Shown piece by piece: positions 2,833 through 39,065 of a DNA stretch of 39,154 nucleotides. The DNA comes from an uncultured Bacteroidales bacterium (GTDB lineage Bacteria > Bacteroidota > Bacteroidia > Bacteroidales > UBA932), in contig ONOH01000018.1 in NCBI GenBank assembly GCA_900319405.1, positions 1 to 39,154 of the forward strand, written 5' to 3'. The position numbers and the translations under genes are program-made. Every line of letters starts with the position of its first letter. The first letter of the stretch is position 1. Under the pieces are notes generated by a model, which saw nothing but the letters and a program-made list of their open reading frames with translations, did not search any database and had not been told where the DNA came from.

Positions 2833-3543
2833 ATGAGTGAAGAGACTAAACAGGCAGCCAGAATTCAGACTTCTATCCTGAACAGTTACGAAAAGAAAGT
2901 TTTGGTGTGGATGGCAGAGAGGATGCCGGCCCCCGTTACTTCCGATATGCTTACCTTCGTGGGGTTTCTGGGCGCTTGCATCGTGGCTGCCGGATATGCC
3001 CTTTCCAATCTGAATCTCCTGTGGCTGTGGCTGGCCAATCTGGGTCTTCTGGTCAACTGGTTCGGAGATTCCATGGACGGCAGTCTGGCCCGTGTCCGGC
3101 GCATCCAGCGTAAAACGTACGGTTTTTATATCGACCACAATGTCGATATCATCAACGAAACCATTATGTTCATCGGCGTGGGAGTCAGTCCGCTGGTGAA
3201 TATGAGTTTTGCGATGCTGGCGCTGGTCGCCTATTTCATGCTCAGCATCTATGTCTATATCAACTGTCACCTGAAAGGAGAGATGAGACTCACCTATGCC
3301 GGTCTGGGTCCCACTGAGTTCCGGCTTTTGCTGGTGATGGTAAACATCCTGTTCATGTATATTCCCTGGCTCTCCAACTGGAAGCATCCCATCACTCTTT
3401 TTAACACGCATTTTATGGTGGGGATCTTCGACTATATCACCGTTGCCATCTCCATACTGCTGTTTGTGTTCTATCTGGCAGGTTTCTTCCGGGATGCCAG
3501 GTATTTCTCGAAACTGGACCCTCCCGTAAAAAAAGAAGAGTAG
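2833..3543 (+). CDS. CDP-alcohol phosphatidyltransferase family protein
   Basis: Integral membrane enzyme that swaps CMP of a CDP-alcohol for another alcohol to make a phosphodiester lipid. The ATG at 2833 (MSEETKQAAR) gives 236 aa; an upstream TTG lies inside the promoter. The family signature is complete at residues 79-105: DSMDGSLAR, nine residues, GFYID, HNVD, i.e. D-x2-DG-x2-AR-x9-G-x3-D-x3-D, one residue longer in the middle than the classical x8. Several hydrophobic helices follow. It is the first gene of a tight operon with an acyltransferase (1-nt gap) and a dehydrogenase. Head group could be glycerol phosphate, serine, inositol or ethanolamine-like; the sequence does not decide. Confidence 0.85.
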   Translation: MSEETKQAARIQTSILNSYEKKVLVWMAERMPAPVTSDMLTFVGFLGACIVAAGYALSNLNLLWLWLANLGLLVNWFGDSMDGSLARVRRIQRKTYGFYIDHNVDIINETIMFIGVGVSPLVNMSFAMLALVAYFMLSIYVYINCHLKGEMRLTYAGLGPTEFRLLLVMVNILFMYIPWLSNWKHPITLFNTHFMVGIFDYITVAISILLFVFYLAGFFRDARYFSKLDPPVKKEE

Positions 3544-28725: not shown

Positions 28726-30755
28726 TGACAATGGAAATGGAAAGAAGACGATGTTATATCGGCTGCCTGGCATCCGTGGCGATGATCTCGGCGTTCCTCT
28801 TTTCCTCTTGCGGGCCAGGCCGGAAAATCGAGGCTGTCCGGCAGCAGGAGCTGTCGGCCGTCCTCGCCCTCTCCCGCAACGAAATCAAGGAGGAACGCGG
28901 AGTCATCGCGGTTACCCGGAGAGATACCCTGACCATCCGTGATTCGGACGGAAAGAGACTCCTTATAATGAAGGCCGTCAAGGACGATGAAACGGGAGAA
29001 ATGGTGGCTACAGATGTCTTGGACGCCGCGGTCATCACCGCCCGTTTCCGGAACGTGGCCGAGCGGCACGGAAAAATCGACCTTCGTTTTGAGATTATCG
29101 TACCTGCCTCCATGCAGGACAGCCACTGGCAACTGCGCTTCCACCCCGATATGTTCATCCTGGAAGATTCGCTGCGACTGGAAAGCGTGTTTGTCACGGG
29201 AGAAGAGTATCGGAAAAAGCAAATCCGGGGCTACGAACTGTATAACCGCTTTCTCTCCAGAATCATCACCGATTCCATGGCTTTCGTCAATCTTCGTAAC
29301 GTCGAAATCTTCATCCAGCGCAACCTGGAGGAGCTTTATCAACTCAAATGCGACTCCAGCTTCGTGTCGGAAGAACGCGCCGCCGCCTTCGAATCCTACT
29401 GGGGACTTCACGAAAAGGAGGTCATCGAACACTATACCAATCGTTTTGCGTGGCGATACAACGAAAAAAGGAAGGAAAGAAAGAGCAGTATGTTTGCGCG
29501 CTACGTCAAATCGCCCATCGTAACGGAAGGAATCCGGCTGGATACCGTCCTTCGAAACTCCGACGGGGATTTCGTGTACCACTATACCCAAACCATCAGC
29601 ACCCGTCCCCGCCTCCGGAAAGTGGACATCGTCCTGTCCGGAGACATCTACGAGGCCGACCAGCGGATCTATTCGATGCAGAGAACACCTCCGCTCACCT
29701 TCTACATCAGTTCCTTGTCGGCCTTTGTGGACGGGACAGAACGCTATCTGTCCCACATCGTGGAACGTCAGGTATCGGCCAATACGGCCTGTTATGTGGA
29801 CTTTGAAACGGGAAAATCGCAAATCAACCCGGAACTGGGCCATAACCGGACGGAACTGGGCCGTATTCGAAGGAATCTTTCCGAATTGCTGGATAAGCAG
29901 CAGTTGGAGATGGACTCGATCGTTATTGCGGCATCAGCTTCCCCGGAGGGTAACGAGAAGGCAAATATTGCCCTTTCCGGGAAAAGGGCTGCTTCCGTCG
30001 CGGACTATTTCGGACAATATATCCGGCATTACCGGGACTCGGTCCGTCGTAACGAAGGGCTGATGTTGACCGTGGATGACAGTGGGCGGGAAAGCTTGTC
30101 CGGAAAAAGCTCTTCTTTCCCCGAAATCCGCTTCCTGTCCCGTTCCAACGGCGAAAACTGGGATTTCCTCTCCTTGCTGGTAGACCAGGATACGCTGCTC
30201 TCCCCTTCCGATGTCCGCTCCTATATGCGGCATCTTTCGGAAGAGGATCCGGACCGACGCGAGACCGCCCTCCAGCGGGAGCCCTATTACCGTTACCTTC
30301 GTGAGAAACTTTACCCTCGTCTGAGAACCGTTCGTTTCGACTTCTATCTGCACCGGAAGGGAATGCTCAAGGATACGGTCCATACCACCGTGCTGGACTC
30401 TGTCTATATGAAAGGAGTCGCTGCACTTCGGGACCGGGACTACCGGAAAGCATTGGATTATCTTCGGGATTACAAAGACTACAATACAGCCATTGCCTAT
30501 GTTTCCCTGGATTACAATGCCTCCGCTATGGCCATTCTTCAGAAGCTGGAACGGACGCCACAGGTAAATTACATGCTGGCTCTGCTGTATGCCCGCAGTG
30601 AGGACGACCAGAATGCCGTTCAATGCTACCTGGACGCCTGCCACGAAGACCGCTCTTTTATTTTTCGGGGAAATCTGGATCCAGAAATCTATACGCTCAT
30701 TCAACGCTACGGACTGAATCAACAGAACGATGAAGAATGGGAGTCCTCGCTTTAG
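28725..30755 (+). CDS. OmpA-domain lipoprotein of the fimbrial locus (DUF3868-type)
   Basis: 676-aa protein from the ATG at 28725 (MTMEMERRRCYIGCL). A lipobox LFSSC puts the lipidated Cys near residue 28. Residues about 80-330 form an unassigned N-domain. Residues 353-460 resemble the OmpA peptidoglycan-binding domain: CYVDFETGKSQINPEL, then DSIVIAASASPEGNEK and LSGKRAASVADYF. The last 110 residues have TPR-like helices (YRKALDYLRDYKDYNTA, YMLALLYARSEDDQNA). Thus it may anchor the fimbrial machine to the cell wall. Similar OmpA/DUF3868 proteins follow DUF3575 in Bacteroides fimbrial operons. Frames starting upstream at 28545 overlap the previous gene and are not used. Confidence 0.78.
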   Translation: MTMEMERRRCYIGCLASVAMISAFLFSSCGPGRKIEAVRQQELSAVLALSRNEIKEERGVIAVTRRDTLTIRDSDGKRLLIMKAVKDDETGEMVATDVLDAAVITARFRNVAERHGKIDLRFEIIVPASMQDSHWQLRFHPDMFILEDSLRLESVFVTGEEYRKKQIRGYELYNRFLSRIITDSMAFVNLRNVEIFIQRNLEELYQLKCDSSFVSEERAAAFESYWGLHEKEVIEHYTNRFAWRYNEKRKERKSSMFARYVKSPIVTEGIRLDTVLRNSDGDFVYHYTQTISTRPRLRKVDIVLSGDIYEADQRIYSMQRTPPLTFYISSLSAFVDGTERYLSHIVERQVSANTACYVDFETGKSQINPELGHNRTELGRIRRNLSELLDKQQLEMDSIVIAASASPEGNEKANIALSGKRAASVADYFGQYIRHYRDSVRRNEGLMLTVDDSGRESLSGKSSSFPEIRFLSRSNGENWDFLSLLVDQDTLLSPSDVRSYMRHLSEEDPDRRETALQREPYYRYLREKLYPRLRTVRFDFYLHRKGMLKDTVHTTVLDSVYMKGVAALRDRDYRKALDYLRDYKDYNTAIAYVSLDYNASAMAILQKLERTPQVNYMLALLYARSEDDQNAVQCYLDACHEDRSFIFRGNLDPEIYTLIQRYGLNQQNDEEWESSL

Positions 30756-30799
30756 ACAGCTATATCTATCAATTCATTTATCATTTAATCAGAAAACGT

Positions 30800-31933
30800 A
30801 TGAAAAAAAAACATTTCATTTCCATCGTTGCCCTTTTGACTGCCATCTGGGCCGTTTCCTGCAACAAGAACCACAGCGATTCCGATTCGCTCCCGGAGCA
30901 ACAGGAGGCCAGTTACGGTAATGTCCGGATCAGCCTCAACACTTCCGGAGAGCAGGCGACAAAGGTCCTCAGTTCCAGTGCTGCCGAAACCCGAATCAAT
31001 TCGGTTCAGGTATTCATCTTCAACAAGGCCAGCGGAAAACGGGAAACAGATCGTTTCGAGAATCTCTCCGGTACCGTCAGCGATTCCTACTCGATGACGC
31101 TGACTTCCCTGACGGGAGAAAAAGTGGTGTGGGCAGTGGTGAATTCTCCCCGAATCACCAATGTCGCCACCTTGGACGCCCTGAAGCAAAAAGTTTCCGA
31201 CCTGGGCGAAAACACGGTCGAAAACCTTCTGATGAGCGGATTCAATGAGAACGTGCTGGTCCGGGAAACCAACAGCAACGTCTCTTCCCAACAAAACGTT
31301 GTCACAGATGCCTCTATCGACGTTTTTCGTTTGGGTGCAAGGATTTCACTGAACGCCGTCACAGTTGATTTCTCCAACACCGACTTGGAAAACGCTACTT
31401 TCACAGTAACCGGTCTTTATCTGAAAAATGTCGTGGGGAAAGTTCGCCTCGACGGCTCGGGCATCGATCTGACCCAGGCAGCAAACTGGTACAATATGAC
31501 CAATCAGGCCGCAGTCACCTCGGCTCCAGCCGCCATCCAGGCCCTCACCAAAGATATGCCCCTGAGCGTAAACTGCAACAGTTCCGGTACGGCGACGGCG
31601 ATAGGCTATTCCTGGTATGTGTATCCGAATGCAACCACGTCAGGGCAGGATACGAATGCCGCAGGAACTTCCGTTCCCAGAGGTACCCGGCTGGTCATCA
31701 AAGCGCATCTTGGAGGCACTTCCGTGGGAGGAGCGCTGAACGAAGACACGTATTATGTTTTTACCATTCCCGAAATCAAACGCAACAACGCCTACAACAT
31801 CACCAGCCTTAAAATCACGATGCGCGGAAAACCCGATGACAACACCGATGAACCTACCAACAGCGGACAGCTAAGCGCTACCATTACGGTTCAGGACTGG
31901 GACAGCAACGAAACCCTGACTTACGAGTTCTAG
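30800..31933 (+). CDS. Major fimbrillin subunit (Mfa1/FimA type)
   Basis: 377-aa lipoprotein pilin. The ATG at 30800 (MKKKHFISIVALLTAIWAVSC) gives a clean signal with lipidated Cys21; the longer frame overlaps the previous gene. Residues about 40-375 show the two-domain beta-sandwich expected of type V pilins: NSVQVFIFNKASG, VVWAVVNSP, LGARISLNAV, FTIPEIKRNNAYNITSLKI, and the C-terminal strand ATITVQDWDSNETLTYEF. In P. gingivalis such pilins are lipidated, exported, then cleaved by an Arg protease so a donor strand can be exchanged. Expected to be the most abundant product of the operon. The tRNA-like element follows 34 nt after the stop. Confidence 0.88.
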   Translation: MKKKHFISIVALLTAIWAVSCNKNHSDSDSLPEQQEASYGNVRISLNTSGEQATKVLSSSAAETRINSVQVFIFNKASGKRETDRFENLSGTVSDSYSMTLTSLTGEKVVWAVVNSPRITNVATLDALKQKVSDLGENTVENLLMSGFNENVLVRETNSNVSSQQNVVTDASIDVFRLGARISLNAVTVDFSNTDLENATFTVTGLYLKNVVGKVRLDGSGIDLTQAANWYNMTNQAAVTSAPAAIQALTKDMPLSVNCNSSGTATAIGYSWYVYPNATTSGQDTNAAGTSVPRGTRLVIKAHLGGTSVGGALNEDTYYVFTIPEIKRNNAYNITSLKITMRGKPDDNTDEPTNSGQLSATITVQDWDSNETLTYEF

Positions 31934-31967
31934 TTCTACCGGGACCGCTTATCGCCCGACCGGGAAC

Positions 31968-32029
31968 GAGGGGAAAGTACAGGGACAGGCTCTTTCGGGC
32001 ACCGGGTTCGATTCCCGGTCCCCTCGCCA
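31968..32029 (+). ncRNA. tRNA-like element (acceptor stem, T-arm and CCA) in the fimbrial operon
   Basis: GAGGGGA (31968-31974) pairs perfectly with TCCCCTC (32019-32025), followed by G and CCA (32027-32029). A perfect T-arm, CCGGG-TTCGATT-CCCGG (32002-32018), precedes it directly. Only 27 nt lie between acceptor and T-arm, whereas D-arm, anticodon arm and variable loop need about 41, so it is not a normal tRNA. It may be a truncated tRNA pseudogene, an attachment-site scar, or a functional tRNA mimic for RNase P/Z processing. Repeated ACCGGG at 31938, 31959 and 32001 allows competing folds. Confidence 0.65.
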
Positions 32030-32046
32030 GAAAAACGCGCAAAATT

Positions 32047-32892
32047 ATGAAAAAATACAGCATCGCACTGGGCCTGACAGCCCTCCTGACGGCAGCGGGA
32101 TGCCGCTCGCTAGTGTACGAAGACCGTAGTGAATGTCCTAGTTTCCTGCTATTTGATGTTCTGAACGAGGAACAGTTTCAGCCATCTGACCGCATTCACA
32201 TTACGGTTTACCGCCAGCCGGAAAACGAACTGGCAGACGCCCGGACTCCCCTTTTACGGGAGCTTAAGGACCGGACTTTCCGTTTTGAACTCAAAAAGGC
32301 CGAGGCCTGGAGCGGCTACGGCCTGCTTGGGGCGGAAAAAAGCCGCCTGGCCGGAGATTCAAAGTGGATGATCGAGGAGGGCGAACAGGGTGACCCTCTC
32401 TTCCGCTTTCATTACCACGTTCCCGGATTCGATGAAACTGAAATTGTTCCTGTGGAACTAGTAAAAGACCATTCGCGGGTTACCCTGAAATTCCTCCGCT
32501 TCGACCAGTTCGAGGGCTCCGGAGGCCAGTTCCCTTTCAAAATCGTCATCAAGGGGAACACTTGCGGGATAGATGCCCGAACGGGTATTCCCCTGAGAGG
32601 TGATTTCCTGTACAGTCCGGAAGAAACATTCGGCGGAACCTTTGCCTTCATCCTGCCCCGTCAGGGAGACAATGCTCTGACAATGGAGCTTTGGGCAAAA
32701 CCCGGCCTCTTTTCCCGTGAAGGCCTGATTGACACGTTTAACCTGTCGGCCATGTTCCAGGACCTTGGGAACATTGACTGGGAGGCAAAAAATCTTCCGG
32801 ACATCTACTTGGAAATCAACTATATCGAATCTGTCTACCACATCTTCGTTCGGGAATGGGAGGATGTCAATGAACTAAATTATGAATTATAA
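32047..32892 (+). CDS. FimB/Mfa2-type fimbrial anchor subunit
   Basis: 281-aa lipoprotein (lipobox TAAGC, Cys19) with the family's N-terminal hallmark CRSLVYEDRSECP directly after lipidation. It would sit at the base of the fimbria, retained in the outer membrane and limiting length, as Mfa2 and FimB do in Porphyromonas. The rest is beta-rich (IHITVYRQ, RFHYHVPG, VTLKFLRF, YLEINYIESVYHIFVREWED) as expected of a two-domain transthyretin-like fold. ATG lies 17 nt after the CCA of the tRNA-like element; the next gene starts 6 nt after its stop. Confidence 0.85.
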   Translation: MKKYSIALGLTALLTAAGCRSLVYEDRSECPSFLLFDVLNEEQFQPSDRIHITVYRQPENELADARTPLLRELKDRTFRFELKKAEAWSGYGLLGAEKSRLAGDSKWMIEEGEQGDPLFRFHYHVPGFDETEIVPVELVKDHSRVTLKFLRFDQFEGSGGQFPFKIVIKGNTCGIDARTGIPLRGDFLYSPEETFGGTFAFILPRQGDNALTMELWAKPGLFSREGLIDTFNLSAMFQDLGNIDWEAKNLPDIYLEINYIESVYHIFVREWEDVNELNYEL

Positions 32893-32898
32893 ACCGTT

Positions 32899-33957
32899 AT
32901 GCGTACCATCAGAACACTATTTCTAGCTGCCAGCCTTTCAGCATCGCTTTTGTCCTGTCAAAAGAGAATGAATACCGAAGTTGTTTCAGGGTCGGCCGTT
33001 CTCACCCTTGGCGGTGCGAGCCTTCAAACCAGAGTCACGGATGTCCTTTCTGCGGATGAGTCCCGTATTGAGCGGTGGGCCTATTGGGTGTTCAACCGCA
33101 GTGGACACGCCGTCAAATGCGGTATGGAGACAGGGACAAGCTCAAAAGTAAGCCTCCCTACGGGTTTTTATACCGTCGTGGTACTGGCCAATTATCCCAC
33201 ATCCGGCATCCGGACAATTCCAATAAGGGTTGATGTCACGATAGATGCGCTGTTGGATCGCACATCCGACCTCTCTGACAATGCCCGTAACTGCTTTGTT
33301 ATGAAAGGAGATGCCTCCGTAATCATTGAAGAGGGAAAAACAGTTCCGATTGAGGTGCAACTAACCCGTCTGGTGTCCAAAATCGGTGTAAAAAAGATTT
33401 CAGTAGCTTACTCCAAGTCTGCCCTGGCGACAAAGACAACGATTCTGAAGGGGGTTTACCTGACAAACCTTTACCGAAGCTCGCGTTACGGTAGCGATTA
33501 TACCTACTCGGAGCTGGAGGCTACCCGCACGAAGTGGTACAACTTAATGGGCTGGCACCGCTGGGAGTCCGATCCGGCCGATGGGGCCATCGATGCGCTA
33601 GCGGGAGACTGCGAGCTCAATGTACATCTCTCAGCATCATCGCCGTACACACGGTCACATTACTTCTACTGCTACCCGAACGCTTCCAGAAAGGAGAACG
33701 ACTCTCACGGACTCGAGACGTGGACTATCCGATCGACGCGCCTTGTCATCGAGACGGAAGTGGACGAAAAAACCTATTATTACCAAATCCAGATTCCCCC
33801 GATGAGGCGGAACACTCCTTATGTGGCCGAAGAGGTGGTCATCCGTGAACTCGGTTCACAGGATCCCGAAGACATTGTTCCGGGAAGCCTGGAAGTGATT
33901 TTCAACACAAATGTACAAGGATGGCAAGGTGATTACAGTATTGAAGAGGAATCCTAA
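32899..33957 (+). CDS. Accessory (minor) fimbrial subunit, lipoprotein
   Basis: 352-aa protein with a lipobox ASLLSC (Cys20). The mature part shows the fimbrillin-type pattern: LTLGGASLQTRVTDVLSADE, ERWAYWVFNRSGHAV, FYTVVVLANYP, VQLTRLVSKIGVKKISV, FYCYPNASR, TRLVIETEVDEKTYYYQIQI and a closing strand LEVIFNTNVQGWQGDYSI. That repeats the order of the major subunit, including the TRLVI and RRNTPY blocks, so it is a paralogous pilin. By position it could be a Mfa3/FimC-like linker below the tip. 11 nt separate it from the next gene. Confidence 0.78.
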   Translation: MRTIRTLFLAASLSASLLSCQKRMNTEVVSGSAVLTLGGASLQTRVTDVLSADESRIERWAYWVFNRSGHAVKCGMETGTSSKVSLPTGFYTVVVLANYPTSGIRTIPIRVDVTIDALLDRTSDLSDNARNCFVMKGDASVIIEEGKTVPIEVQLTRLVSKIGVKKISVAYSKSALATKTTILKGVYLTNLYRSSRYGSDYTYSELEATRTKWYNLMGWHRWESDPADGAIDALAGDCELNVHLSASSPYTRSHYFYCYPNASRKENDSHGLETWTIRSTRLVIETEVDEKTYYYQIQIPPMRRNTPYVAEEVVIRELGSQDPEDIVPGSLEVIFNTNVQGWQGDYSIEEES

Positions 33958-33968
33958 AAACTGATAGA

Positions 33969-36900
33969 ATGGATATGAAAAGATACAGAATGTTTATTAC
34001 GGCAGCCATTGTTTTTTTGGCCTCTATGCCCTCCTGCACCAGGGAGGAATATACGAAAGAAGTCAATACCGCATCCGGAAGGCATCCTTTCAGCCTGGAG
34101 ATACAGGATGTCCGAAGGCTGGACACCAAATCCGTCTTGACCGCTACGGATATCGAAACGCGAGTAAGCTCCGTTACCCTGGCCGCCTATTCTGTCTCCG
34201 ATGGTTCCCTGCTGGCCAAAGAGCACTTCACGGAAGGATTCGACCGGATGGCGCTGGATTTATTTGGCGAGCCGGTCGTGAGCGTATATGCCCTTGCGAA
34301 TATGGGAGATATGAGAAACAGCTTTCCATCCCATATTTCGGGGATTGACAACATCCAATACGTGATTCCATCCTATACGGGTTCCTCTGACAGCGTAGAG
34401 GAACGGGGCATTCCGATGTCCGGGACAGTCTATTATAATGAGCGTGCTTCGGAGGAGTCATCCGTAATCCCGCTCCGACGGCTTTTGGCAAAGATTGCCG
34501 TGGACCTTTGTCTCCACTGGCCCGGGACCATTTCTACAGTGCAGATAAAGAATATGAACAGCTTGTTGACTCCCTTCGGGACAAGCAAAGCCGATAAGGT
34601 GTCCGAAGTCTTTCATGCCGAGATAGAATCTGGCGGAGATCTCTCGGCCGGAAGTTTTGTATTCTTTGTCCCGGAGAATATCCAGGGCAGAATCGGAAGT
34701 GCCACCTCTTCTTCCGACAAGAATAATACGGACCCCGAAATCGATGCAAAAAAAGATGTGCTGACGTATATGGAGGTATCGGCCTCCGGCTCCGGAAAGT
34801 ACAATGGAACAATAAAATATCGTAGTTATCTCGGGCACAACAGTACAGATGATTTCTCCATTGCCGGGAACTGTCGTTACACCTGGAAAGTGGACTATCT
34901 TCAGGATGGGACCACCATCAATGACTGGAAGCACGACAATGATCTTTCCTGGTCTGATTACAGATATCAGGCGTTTGCAAGGCCCTCCAAAGGTTATATA
35001 GGGGATCCCATGTATGTCTATCTGAGGAAGGCGGAAGACAAATATGAAAAAGGGACACTAAAAAGCGCAGGGACTTTGAAAAACACCGACACCTTTCTTG
35101 CCGATTGGACGCGCGAAGAGTGGAGTCCCGCTAACTTTCTACGTTTTGACAGCGTTTTTGGAGGGAGTCAGGACAATTTCCGAATCTATCTCGGAATGCG
35201 AGAAGGAGAAGGATATGTCAAGGCCACCGTCAGCGATGAGACGGGGACTTACACGGACCGGGCTCTGCTTACCTGCCTGGGACCCAAGCCGGTTCTCTTG
35301 CTGGGGGGCTCCCCCATTTCCATCCGTCTGGGAGAGTCTGTTCAGCTCACGCTCACTCTGGATGGAGATGATATTATGGGTAAAAATGACACTTACTTCT
35401 ACCTGGAAAAAGGCATCTTCTTCGATCCTGTCAGCGGAAAGCGCAACACGGCAGACTATAATTATGACTATATCGGGAGAGACGGAAAATGGATTCCGAC
35501 AAAGACGGGTACGTATGTGATGTATGCGCAATATTACGGCCAGAGGGTTGTCATTGACGTTCAGTCAAACACAATCAGTATCGTCGTCTCTGATCCGGAC
35601 CCTGCCACGGATCCAGACCCGGACCCGGATCCTGAACCCGATCCAGATCCAAATCCCGACCCCGATCCTGATCCTCAACCTGATCCTGAACCCGATCCCG
35701 AACCCGATCCCGATCCTGATCCTGATCCTCAACCAGATCCAGATCCTGAACCCGAACCTGAACCTGAACCTGAACCAAACATTGTCTCTTATGTCCTTGC
35801 TGTTGATCCTGTCAATCCCGCTTCGAAGATGGTTGGCCAGACAATTTCGTTGAAAGCCTATCTGTGCACTTATGTGAACGACTCCCAAACGGCCCGCGAG
35901 AATGTGTCTTCCAGCGCAAAGTGGGAATGTGATGATGCTTGCGTAACTATCTCCAAGGGTGTCGTCTCTACGACGCTCCCTGGCACATTCGCCATCAAAG
36001 CCTCCTATAAAGACCCCCATGGGGAAACTCAGTCGTCTATGGTCAATGTATCATTCACGGCCGACCCGAATTTCATCATCCTGTCCATCAATCCGTCAAA
36101 CATCCTTTCCGGGGAAACGAGCAAAGCCACCGTGATGTACAATGGCTCGACGAACGTTTCGTCCTCCTCCACCATCAAGGCCTTCACGGCTGAAACCGGC
36201 ACCACAGCCTCGTCCAGGGTGGGTATTTCAGGCAGAACCGTCACCGGACTCTCCGTCGGAGACTGCTGGCTGGAGGCTTCCTATACTACCAGTGGCAGAA
36301 CCTATACCTCGGCCCGCGTAAAAATGACTGTGATGCCAGACACTCCTCCTGTACCTCCGTTGACGGTCGCTTGGGACAGTGAGCCTTCGTATGTCGCCCA
36401 GCGGGGCAAATTTGCCGTGAGCGGGCTGCAGAGCGGAGAAACCATTTCCTCCTACCAGGCAACGGCAGGTTCCGAGAGGGTCCGGCTCTCGCCCTCGGGG
36501 ACCTCCTGCCTCGTAAGCCTCCTGAAAACGGGCTCATACACCATCAAGGTGACCACCTCGAAAAAACGTAGCGTCACCCTCTCCGGAACGGTGAAAGCAC
36601 CGGTCCTGACCCTCAATGCTGATGTTTTCTATGCCAATCCCGACGGCACGGAAGCCCATACCGGTACCGACGGGCTGACTGGGAATAGTCTGAGAGTGGG
36701 ATACTCTGTCGGAGGAACGGCCGCAGCCTTTGTCAACGACGGGATTGCTGTCGGGAACCAGCTCCTGAAATCCCTCTATGAGGAGCTGCTCGCTCCCAGC
36801 CTGAGTTCCTCGTCAAGTTTACTTTATGTTTATGATACCGGCGTTTATGCAAAAGATACCTATGAGTATTCAGGAAGTAACGGTGCAGTTGCACACACGC

Positions 36901-37922
36901 TCGGAACAGTGACAGTAGCGCCGAAGGAGACCTCCTCGGGTATAGCTTCCAAAACATTCACCGTCAGGAAGGTAAATCCGTTTGTAGGCTGGGGATCTGT
37001 CTCCCAAAGGGAAGATGTAGAAGACTGGAGCCTCCTTTCCGGCTATTATACCCATACAAAATATTACAACGATGCCTTCTATACCAACCCTGTCGTCGCT
37101 TCCACGGGACAATGCGGCTTCACCGTCTTTATCAACGAGCAGGAGGCACCGTCCGATTTTGCTGCCCTGTTCAGCGGTAACGTAAACGCCAACGGTGGAA
37201 GGGTTTCCTGGAGCCTCAGTCAAGCCGTATTCTCCGGTTTGTCGGAACACTACGCGGGAGATGTTACCCTCCGGGCCTATGTACGGAACCGCCACAGCGG
37301 AAACCGCCTGTTCCGACCGTTCGTTTCGTTCCGCTTGTTCGTGCACGGAGCTGTCGGCGCAAGGGTGGTCATGGACAAGCCCAAGACAGTTTCGGGGAGG
37401 ATCCATTACGAAGCAATGTTAATGCAGGCAGGCTTTGTCGGAAATATCTCCGGAACCCCCTTTGCCAACAACGGCAGCGGAGGCATGGTCATCTATTCAG
37501 TCGCGTCCACATTCGATCGATGGGATGCGGTTGACCACGGCCTTGGAAGCTGTCCTTATTTCATCGCGAACAGTCAGGAAATGATCAATTTTACCACCGG
37601 AAACGATTATATCCTGCAGATTATTCCGGGCAGGAAAAAAGGGACGGTTCCGGAGACCTACGAACCCGCATACAATCAATACTTCCTCTCTTCCGACGCG
37701 GAGGCGTTCCGGATGAGTACCCCATCAAACCTGACGTGGGGAACGGTCATCAACACGGCGGTAGTCAGAAAGGACGGAAACATCCTCTATATGAAGAACG
37801 ATAGTGATGAGCCCGACAGGGAGGTTGGCGGACAAGGGGGCCTGGGATACTATGTCCTTCACCTGCTTAAGGATATACAGAATTCAGGAGCCGTCAATGG
37901 CAACAACGGCTGGATCCGTTAA
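33969..37922 (+). CDS. Large fimbrial tip-like lipoprotein (adhesin candidate)
   Basis: 1317-aa surface protein; lipobox SMPSC gives Cys23. Residues 24-330 are fimbrillin-like (DUF4906-like by resemblance), including LRRLLAKIAVDL. Residues about 450-540 contain Ig-like strands. Residues 541-603 are a Pro-Asp/Pro-Glu rich stalk. Next come several Ig-like (BIG2-type) modules, for example VDPVNPASKMVGQTISLKAY and SINPSNILSGETSKATVMYN, and a C-terminal globular region of about 350 residues without recognised motif. Being last and largest in the operon, it is probably the tip adhesin. A von Willebrand MIDAS motif (DxSxS) like that of Mfa5 was not seen. Transcription ends at the strong terminator just behind. 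Confidence 0.75.
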   Translation: MDMKRYRMFITAAIVFLASMPSCTREEYTKEVNTASGRHPFSLEIQDVRRLDTKSVLTATDIETRVSSVTLAAYSVSDGSLLAKEHFTEGFDRMALDLFGEPVVSVYALANMGDMRNSFPSHISGIDNIQYVIPSYTGSSDSVEERGIPMSGTVYYNERASEESSVIPLRRLLAKIAVDLCLHWPGTISTVQIKNMNSLLTPFGTSKADKVSEVFHAEIESGGDLSAGSFVFFVPENIQGRIGSATSSSDKNNTDPEIDAKKDVLTYMEVSASGSGKYNGTIKYRSYLGHNSTDDFSIAGNCRYTWKVDYLQDGTTINDWKHDNDLSWSDYRYQAFARPSKGYIGDPMYVYLRKAEDKYEKGTLKSAGTLKNTDTFLADWTREEWSPANFLRFDSVFGGSQDNFRIYLGMREGEGYVKATVSDETGTYTDRALLTCLGPKPVLLLGGSPISIRLGESVQLTLTLDGDDIMGKNDTYFYLEKGIFFDPVSGKRNTADYNYDYIGRDGKWIPTKTGTYVMYAQYYGQRVVIDVQSNTISIVVSDPDPATDPDPDPDPEPDPDPNPDPDPDPQPDPEPDPEPDPDPDPDPQPDPDPEPEPEPEPEPNIVSYVLAVDPVNPASKMVGQTISLKAYLCTYVNDSQTARENVSSSAKWECDDACVTISKGVVSTTLPGTFAIKASYKDPHGETQSSMVNVSFTADPNFIILSINPSNILSGETSKATVMYNGSTNVSSSSTIKAFTAETGTTASSRVGISGRTVTGLSVGDCWLEASYTTSGRTYTSARVKMTVMPDTPPVPPLTVAWDSEPSYVAQRGKFAVSGLQSGETISSYQATAGSERVRLSPSGTSCLVSLLKTGSYTIKVTTSKKRSVTLSGTVKAPVLTLNADVFYANPDGTEAHTGTDGLTGNSLRVGYSVGGTAAAFVNDGIAVGNQLLKSLYEELLAPSLSSSSSLLYVYDTGVYAKDTYEYSGSNGAVAHTLGTVTVAPKETSSGIASKTFTVRKVNPFVGWGSVSQREDVEDWSLLSGYYTHTKYYNDAFYTNPVVASTGQCGFTVFINEQEAPSDFAALFSGNVNANGGRVSWSLSQAVFSGLSEHYAGDVTLRAYVRNRHSGNRLFRPFVSFRLFVHGAVGARVVMDKPKTVSGRIHYEAMLMQAGFVGNISGTPFANNGSGGMVIYSVASTFDRWDAVDHGLGSCPYFIANSQEMINFTTGNDYILQIIPGRKKGTVPETYEPAYNQYFLSSDAEAFRMSTPSNLTWGTVINTAVVRKDGNILYMKNDSDEPDREVGGQGGLGYYVLHLLKDIQNSGAVNGNNGWIR
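35591..35778 (+). repeat. DP/EP codon repeat encoding a Pro-Asp stalk
   Basis: A 188-bp tract of GATCC-, GACCC- and GAACC-type hexamer variants encodes alternating Pro with Asp, Glu, or rarely Gln/Asn. Such tracts can change length by slippage or recombination in steps of two residues without breaking the frame. It links the fimbrillin-like N-part to the Ig-like modules of the tip protein. Confidence 0.85.
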
Positions 37923-37995: not shown

Positions 37996-38631
37996 GTGAA
38001 CAAACAGATTCTTTCATCTATAGCGCTTTTGTCACTGCTCTCTTGCGGGACTCTCCGCCAGGGTGGCACTGCTGTCACTTCCCCAGCCACGGATACCCTT
38101 CTCACCCGGGAAGTGGGCTTTGCTGATGTTCCGGAGAAAGAGAACAAAGAAGAAAGCGTATCGGCCCCGCAAAGTCCTTCTCCTTCGCAGACTGCCCCCG
38201 TCTCCGTTTCACAAGAGACGCTTGCAGACCAGGTCATCGCCTATGCGCGAACATTTCTGGGAACGCCCTATAAACTGGGCGCTTCCGGACCCAAGCTTTT
38301 TGACTGCTCCGGCTTCACCCGCTATGTTTTCAAGCACTTCGGCTACAACCTTACCCAATATTCGGGGGCCCAGTTTTCAGAGGGACGCGAGGTGCCCGGC
38401 TATTCCGACCTTCAGAAGGGGGATCTGGTGTTCTTCGGCAAACGCGGGAGTGTCCGCAATATCGGCCACGTAGGCATCGTAGTTTCGGTCAATGAAGAAA
38501 AGGGTTCTTTCAGCTTCATCCATGCTTCCACTTCCGGCGGTGTCATCGAGAGCGAGTCTACCCAGGCCTACTATATGATGCGCTACATCGGCGCCCGCCG
38601 TATTTTACCGGATGAAGATAGGAAAGACTGA
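37996..38631 (+). CDS. NlpC/P60 family lipoprotein (peptidoglycan endopeptidase)
   Basis: 211-aa cysteine peptidase cutting D-gamma-Glu-diaminopimelate bonds. The GTG at 37996 gives a neat lipoprotein signal (MNKQILSSIALLSLLSC, Cys17); the longer open frame to 37804 overlaps the tip gene, terminator and promoter. After a Ser/Pro/Glu-rich linker (residues 35-75) the NlpC domain has C104 in FDCSGF, H158 in IGHVGIV and H176 in FIHAS, a complete triad. Probably outer-membrane anchored and acting on the wall in the periplasm. Monocistronic, followed by the ssrA promoter. Confidence 0.9.
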   Translation: MNKQILSSIALLSLLSCGTLRQGGTAVTSPATDTLLTREVGFADVPEKENKEESVSAPQSPSPSQTAPVSVSQETLADQVIAYARTFLGTPYKLGASGPKLFDCSGFTRYVFKHFGYNLTQYSGAQFSEGREVPGYSDLQKGDLVFFGKRGSVRNIGHVGIVVSVNEEKGSFSFIHASTSGGVIESESTQAYYMMRYIGARRILPDEDRKD

Positions 38632-38666: not shown

Positions 38667-39061
38667 GGGGGTGTTTTGGTTTTGACAGCGCTGATGCTGG
38701 ACGGTAAGCATACCGGGCCTCGGAACCTGTCCCGTAAAACGCAGATTCCAAAAAATCAGTTGCCAACAACAACTATGCACTCGCTGCTTAATTTGCCAAG
38801 CAAATTAACTTAATCCGCGTCGCCAAGGCTGCGTCGCCGACGAGTATCCCTCGGACTTTCCGCCCGGTACAGGCCGATCAAGGGGTATCATCCAGACCGG
38901 GACGCTCCGGCGGACGCCTCTAAAGCCGGCTAAGACTTAAAGGCTAAGGGACGCTTCGCCCGCCTTTCGGCAGGGCTTCCTCGAAAACCAAAGGAAGGAT
39001 AAGTATGTAGAAAGCCGCCCGGTGCGACGTTTGGACAGCGGTTCGAGTCCGCTCACCTCCA
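38667..39061 (+). ncRNA. ssrA: Transfer-messenger RNA (ssrA)
   Basis: About 395 nt. The 5' end GGGGGTG (38667-38673) pairs with CACCTCC (39054-39060), with a G-U third pair that serves as alanine identity, and A39061 is the discriminator; CCA is not encoded. The T-arm GCGG-TTCGAGT-CCGC lies at 39039-39053. TTTTGGTTTTGACAGCG near the 5' end is the classical tmRNA start. The RNA rescues stalled ribosomes with SmpB. It is a one-piece (not permuted) form. A CoA-transferase-like reading frame begins 5 nt behind it. Confidence 0.96.
38762..38791 (+). other. tmRNA tag-coding frame
   Basis: The frame GCC AAC AAC AAC TAT GCA CTC GCT GCT TAA encodes ANNNYALAA. The preceding AGTT has the A at -4 and G at -3 found before the resume codon of E. 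coli tmRNA, which fixes GCC as resume codon. The YALAA end is the degradation signal for ClpXP-type proteases. Confidence 0.9.
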
Positions 39062-39065
39062 CAAA

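Follow-up and report, generated by a model that had tools for sequence, protein, structure and literature searches.

What does a tRNA-shaped sequence do between two protein-coding genes of a single operon? The question is raised by the window analysed here, a stretch of 39,154 nucleotides (nt) from an uncultured Bacteroidales bacterium (contig ONOH01000018.1 of assembly GCA_900319405.1), in which the gene of a fimbrial pilin is separated from the next gene, called the anchor gene for its place, by a gap of 113 nt. Read directly from the letters of the window, this gap holds a tRNA-like element in which an acceptor stem, a T arm and an encoded CCA stand in the spacing of a tRNA. An original prediction made from the sequence had proposed that such a mimic could be cut by tRNA enzymes, dividing the message; the observation itself is confirmed, on firmer ground than first described, and that interpretation has been supported in part. 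The place, the pairing and the conservation of the element are established at the level of sequence, and we assign a probability of about 0.5 to the reading that it would act in cis as a processing and insulation signal, read by tRNA enzymes, which separates the expression of the pilin from that of the anchor.

Comparison of the same gap in related genomes, which the original prediction had suggested as a check, is regarded as decisive against chance: the shape recurs in the orthologous gaps of six other genomes, which represent other species of the same Bacteroidales genus, and compensatory changes were found across the seven members. The anchor protein was matched at E 1e-10 or better in 49 of 121 genomes of the genus, and the gaps were read in 30 fetched loci, the window's own included (in one locus, L045, no upstream open reading frame (ORF) was found). 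In the gaps of genomes G038 and G054, a hairpin of the same shape with other letters was recognized by this reading and not by a structure model; the window, G038 and G054 are therefore the non-circular members, the other four having been found with structure-based models. The model built on these three (R1), applied to 250 genus genomes, gave a match at E up to 1 in 192 of them and added G407 and G433 (an ARAGORN tRNA was present in 22 of 30 fetched loci, not always at the position of the match), and the model built on five members (R2), applied to 400 genus genomes, added G356 and G597. In total, seven of the 400 genus genomes are carriers, with the element in the same gap and on the same strand in all seven. 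The seven best R2 matches (40.6-53.3 bits) all lie in the pilin-anchor gap, and the eighth (35.7 bits) is found in G071, upstream of an rve-domain gene. At E up to 0.003, R2 matched 20 of these genomes, namely the seven carriers, G071 and G565, each with its match upstream of a gene with an rve domain, G003, where no tRNA was called, and ten with sequences of the tRNA-Ser type, eight of which were called by ARAGORN and two judged tRNA-Ser-like by eye at contig ends.

Among 295 genomes of the order, 22 had an R2 match at E up to 0.003, the window's own element scoring 49.8 bits and the next best match 33.7; the 19 inspected of the other 21 matches were all tRNA genes. Among 269 genomes of the family, a draw that may or may not have included the other carriers, the own element alone was matched at E up to 0.0005. 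A strict pattern recovered two carriers in 250 genomes, and a DNA search of 101 genus genomes returned the own gap only, plus a single match of 25 bases inside the next gene in G089. The model runs used strict filters and scored no more than 16-25 candidates in each genome, so that members of weak score or divergent sequence may have escaped them. When named genomes were scanned with the anchor alignment, 37 loci were obtained, from Bacteroidales or Bacteroidia metagenome-assembled genomes and one Prevotellaceae, many of them named for ruminant hosts; the element is present in six of these loci, which by sequence are the six other carriers already known, and in the 37 loci plus the window (281 kb) the seven elements are the only matches above 25.9 bits.

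Across the members the element measures 51-63 nt, with a spacer of 15-27 nt between acceptor and T arm. In the acceptor stem of 8 base pairs (bp), counting the pair of position -1 with position 73, and the T stem of 5 bp, 90 of 91 cells are paired and 9 of 13 pairs have changed on both sides (65 of 65 and 8 of 13, respectively, in the first five members). Small spacer hairpins appear in the isolated folds of several members, and three Watson-Crick pairs from the first spacer base, closing a loop with GG, are possible in six of the seven spacers; that of G433 also forms such a D-like helix if the first T-stem base is used. Six were never reached by shuffled spacers (mean 0.49 in 50,000 trials, also with the best of four start positions) or by random stretches of the window (mean 0.41 in 20,000), a p-value that is optimistic since the pattern was noticed before testing. 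With this helix included, pairing extends to 110 of 111 cells, and both-side changes are seen in 12 of 16 pairs, in three helices. For this full set of pairs, none of 500 shuffles attained the observed pairing or covariation score, and slid controls reached at most 64.8% paired cells and four pairs with both-side changes; the count of pair types alone is unexceptional (73 of 500 shuffles). The element thus resembles the upper half of a tRNA, lacking an anticodon arm and composed of an acceptor, a D-like arm with GG, a T arm with TTCGA and a CCA end, and the retention of its shape while the letters change probably marks a working signal and not scrap.

The individual parts of the element and its flanking genes are collected in Table 1. 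The T arm and the encoded CCA described in the original prediction were confirmed letter by letter. The perfect 7-bp acceptor stem announced there is present, but it extends to 8 bp once the C at -1 pairs with G73, which is accordingly not clearly a free discriminator. The spacer of 27 nt (31975-32001) was counted correctly, but with a D-like hairpin possible, only the anticodon arm, absent from all the spacers, need be missing. The upstream gene is indeed a pilin gene by Pfam, whereas the label of the anchor rests on its place: its protein matched no Pfam or NCBIfam family, and alignments of it against the PDB gave no convincing relative, with one row at chance level. The three ACCGGG copies (31938, 31959 and 32001), thought able to drive a switch between folds, are all present in the window, but none was seen upstream of the other six members, and the switch was set aside.

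Table 1. Features of the pilin-anchor gap and its two flanking genes, in window positions
Feature	Position	Strand	Evidence
Pilin gene, FimA/Mfa1-like fimbrillin, 5' of the element	30737..31933	+	Pfam P_gingi_FimA, 28.2 bits (cut-off 21.4)
Acceptor stem, 5' strand, 8 bp: C at -1 (31967) and GAGGGGA (31968-31974)	31967..31974	+	56/56 cells paired over 7 members; both-side changes in 7/8 pairs
Possible D-arm-like hairpin: AAG (31975-31977), loop with GG (31978-31991), CTT (31992-31994)	31975..31994	+	3 bp; possible in 6/7 members
Linker before the T arm, without anticodon arm	31995..32001	+	Direct reading
T arm, CCGGG-TTCGATT-CCCGG, 5 bp	32002..32018	+	TTCGA invariant in 7/7; 34/35 T-stem cells paired
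Acceptor stem, 3' strand: TCCCCTC (32019-32025) and G at position 73 (32026)	32019..32026	+	Direct reading; pairing over members
Encoded CCA	32027..32029	+	CCA in 6/7 members, CAA in G038
A-rich leader, 17 nt between CCA and start codon	32030..32046	+	No T run >2 after the stem
Next operon gene, lipoprotein-like, named anchor for its place	32047..32892	+	No Pfam or NCBIfam family

A full tRNA can be rejected as the identity of the element: the tRNA-finder and RNA-family checks proposed earlier found only a transfer-messenger RNA (tmRNA) in the window, with no ARAGORN call on the element and, at Rfam gathering cut-offs, a score below every threshold (the best weak match, to tRNA-Sec, reaches 19.6 bits where the cut-off is 47). 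A role as an aminoacyl-tRNA, or in binding EF-Tu as raised in the original prediction, is not supported, position 73 being G or T and pairable with -1, and the acceptor letters being variable. The tmRNA gene (38667-39062, tag ADSKKSVANNNYALAA) follows the element at a distance of about 7 kb, behind an ORF ending at 38631; a copy of its 3' end was considered as the origin of the element and rejected, the likeness being a gapped one of 21 columns. Downstream of the anchor, the operon continues with a gene of weak likeness to the FimD tip adhesin (32899-33957; 3e-13, 49.4 bits against a cut-off of 170) and with a gene for a DUF4906 protein of 1317 amino acids with a stretch rich in D and P (33969-37922).

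Several tRNA-like sequences were encountered elsewhere. Those before the rve (integrase core) genes, L103 (G071:C7:33206-33266) and L110 (G565:C71:12140-12184), have no ARAGORN call, lie just upstream of the rve gene and downstream of a small ORF that is similar in the two genomes, and are perhaps the end of a Mu-like element. L072 (G059:C66:18459-18524), in a genome with six R1 matches, combines an acceptor, a long hairpin, a T arm and CCA about 190 nt after a tRNA-Val, whose T arm is identical to its own. In G356:C34:1027-1440, a span of about 400 bases contains four tRNA-like 3' ends with unusual sequences, which perhaps represent a tRNA cluster on a mobile element.

Neither a promoter-like site of the consensus TAnnTTTG around the element nor an intrinsic terminator was seen in any of the seven members, in each of which T runs in the 20 nt following the stem reach a length of 1-2 at most; a single transcript across the gap is therefore likely, and the element was rejected as a terminator or a promoter of its own. 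An ATG stands 14-23 nt past the CCA in all seven, with an earlier ATG at 0-11 nt in G038, G433, G356 and G597. Among the 37 named loci, omission of L150 and of the six carriers leaves 30 non-carriers, and in 28 of these the first in-frame ATG falls between -17 and +15 nt from the pilin stop, so that the ORFs overlap or nearly abut; L118 (42 nt, no ATG) and L149 (58 nt) depart from this arrangement. L142, the non-carrier nearest to G433 on the anchor tree, was counted as near solely through an ATG before its hairpin, its match beginning 85 nt past the stop, and its gap (2916-3001) holds an acceptor-like stem of 8 bp followed by GCCA, without a T arm, which is perhaps a remnant or variant of the element.

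Under the reading preferred here, tRNA enzymes, RNase P first among them, would recognize the tRNA-half fold in the pilin-anchor mRNA, and cutting at the element would split the pilin message from the anchor message, insulating the expression of one from that of the other. By sequence and covariation, the features of an RNase P substrate, a coaxial acceptor and T stem-loop followed by a 3' CCA (CAA in G038), are present. The encoded CCA, found in 6 of 7 members as compared with 6 of 30 tRNA genes measured in the window's genome (Fisher p 0.0023; the genes measured are those of the 30 best-scoring fetched tRNA loci), is therefore not just the usual look of the tRNA genes of this genome. The RNase P RNA encoded in the same genome is of type A (L171 1501-1828; G000:C33:52756-53083), and the paucity of CCA-encoding tRNA genes is in line with the lack of a GGU motif in the alignment of its P15 loop, at what we take to be the place of that motif in E. 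coli. Since its P15 loop shows no GGU, the CCA may serve something other than RNase P, for instance by keeping RNase Z away, CCA being reported as an RNase Z antideterminant. In E. coli, according to an excerpt of PMC11143913, the P15 loop of RNase P RNA base-pairs with the CCA end through its GGU.

The P15 loop is one of several observations that weigh against this reading. The carriers, 7 among 400 genus genomes, are few and lie scattered over the anchor tree, and four of the seven members were found with models of the very structure towards which the pairing counts then lean. In several more distant homologues (L047, L052, L053, L058 and L064), gaps 69-180 nt long contain different hairpins, or no hairpin, and lack the element, so that a long gap does not need it. 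The -1/73 pair is possible in 20 of the 30 real tRNA genes as well (p 0.16) and was dropped as a special mark. In energy-based folding of the element with its flanks, other pairings are often preferred: with flanks of 120 nt, acceptor pair probability is at most 0.07 in the window, G054 and G407, the T stem reaches 0.01 in G054 and 0.16-0.18 in G433 and does not exceed 0.47 in G356, and both helices exceed 0.8 in G038 and G597 only. Isolated elements are of ordinary stability (z 0 to -2.9 relative to shuffles); the acceptor is present in the minimum-energy folds of all seven members, the T stem in those of five and the D-like hairpin, which has covariation in six, in those of three; in the window, another small hairpin is preferred over the D-like one. 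As folding programs of this kind do not model the tertiary contacts of tRNAs, these results count against the fold but do not settle whether it would form in the mRNA. On the tree of the 37 anchors, five changes of the element are needed, at least four of them forced by starred branches, and 38 of 500 shuffled labellings need as few; the element has therefore been gained or lost repeatedly, and a single origin is neither shown nor excluded.

The principal competing explanation, which we consider possible though only about half as probable as the preferred one, is a passive barrier, comparable to repetitive extragenic palindromic (REP) hairpins, at which 3' exonucleases entering from downstream would stall on the compact fold and its CCA, so that the pilin mRNA outlives the anchor mRNA without any cut by a tRNA enzyme. 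It would accommodate the strong hairpins of other kinds in the gaps of L047, L058 and L064 and the stem of L142, which lacks a T arm; it would, however, require neither an invariant TTCGA loop nor the CCA nor a side hairpin bearing GG, and the ordinary stability of the isolated folds does not favour it. Alternatively, the fold could insulate or position initiation at the anchor gene, alone or through a tRNA-binding protein, replacing the coupling of overlapping ORFs with no cutting involved. The distance of 14-23 nt from the CCA to an ATG in all seven members agrees with this proposal if the later ATG is taken in the four members with two, as do the mostly overlapping or abutting ORFs of non-carriers, but the start codon is uncertain in those four members and the proposal by itself explains neither the encoded CCA nor the tRNA-type T loop; we consider it improbable. 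Still less probable is excision of the element as a free small RNA acting in trans, for example as a decoy for tRNA enzymes: every part used by the enzymes of tRNA maturation appears to be present, yet the element is confined to one gap of one operon in all seven genomes, its acceptor letters vary freely and no sign of an own promoter was seen.

A tRNA pseudogene, or an attachment (att) scar left by integration at a tRNA 3' end, had been named as the alternative in the original prediction and is now strongly disfavoured, in spite of the tRNA-type acceptor and T arm and of the identity of the G038 T arm with that of a tRNA-Leu in the window's genome. The 28-nt 3' end of the element (T arm, 3' acceptor strand, position 73 and CCA), sought with up to three mismatches in 299 family genomes, matches only itself, the own genome being 89% complete, such that one tRNA may be absent from it; among the tRNA-3'-end matches listed for five of the seven carriers (G054, G433, G356, G000 and most of G407, with none listed for G038 and G597), no other one with an element's acceptor strand was seen by eye. 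The gap has no match in phage or plasmid records, viral contigs share no exact 25-mer with it, and the compensatory changes in three helices and the common gap and strand in seven genomes speak against a scar. Chance hairpins resembling a tRNA, finally, are barely credible. The ordinary folding energies would suit them, and the bare acceptor and T-arm geometry, CCA not being required, does occur twice in 7.83 Mb of base-shuffled window; against this stand seven orthologous gaps with the same geometry in different letters. In the fetched loci that geometry gave 11 rows, two being one place, which comprise six elements of this family, one tRNA gene and, elsewhere, L070, L072 and L080.

If the preferred reading of a processing and insulation signal is true, tRNA enzymes can be recruited as regulators of mRNA through an operon fold that is kept by compensatory change and is unlike the tRNAs of its own genome, and a testable answer would be at hand to the question of how one operon makes a pilin in excess of its partner; an element of 51-63 nt could also be a small part for splitting synthetic operons. 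A more specific version, to which we give somewhat less than even odds, is that of a bacterial tRNA punctuation, in which a purpose-built, anticodon-less upper half of a tRNA, read by RNase P and perhaps by the CCA machinery, divides the pilin message from the anchor message and would represent a class of cis-acting RNA that has not been described before and that carries a covariation signature of its own. A survey of the literature on tRNA-like elements and RNase P in operons, on fimbrial operons and on anticodon-less forms, covering titles and abstract openings and leaving most subscription papers outside its scope, brought up nothing of this kind.

We rate the element as belonging with the tRNA-like structures in longer transcripts, which are best known from viruses, organelles and tmRNA. 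In mitochondrial transcripts, tRNAs serve as punctuation, the tRNA fold between genes being the mark for cutting; both cases share a tRNA fold that separates two genes in a single transcript and may mark a place of cutting, whereas the present element stands on a bacterial chromosome and is not a decoding tRNA. In bacterial operons, Li and Altman reportedly proposed in 2003 that RNase P acts at intercistronic sites, at which we know of no conserved tRNA-shaped element; here, by contrast, the shape is conserved and the cutting putative. The tRNA-like domain of tmRNA, which is likened to the upper half of a tRNA in the abstract of PMC3929946, also lacks the anticodon arm, but the element lies between two mRNA genes, has no tag reading frame and resembles the downstream tmRNA only in a short gapped T-arm match. 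RNase P is described in an excerpt of PMC11143913 as acting on some mRNAs, and the same text presents an acceptor stem with a T stem-loop, the AT1 type of McClain et al. 1987, as an efficient model substrate of this enzyme. An acceptor stem continued by a T stem-loop and ending in a 3' CCA is what the element has in common with that substrate; it differs in being natural, in lying within an mRNA, in having a stem of 8 bp when the -1/73 pair is counted, and in carrying 15-27 extra nt able to form a D-like hairpin.
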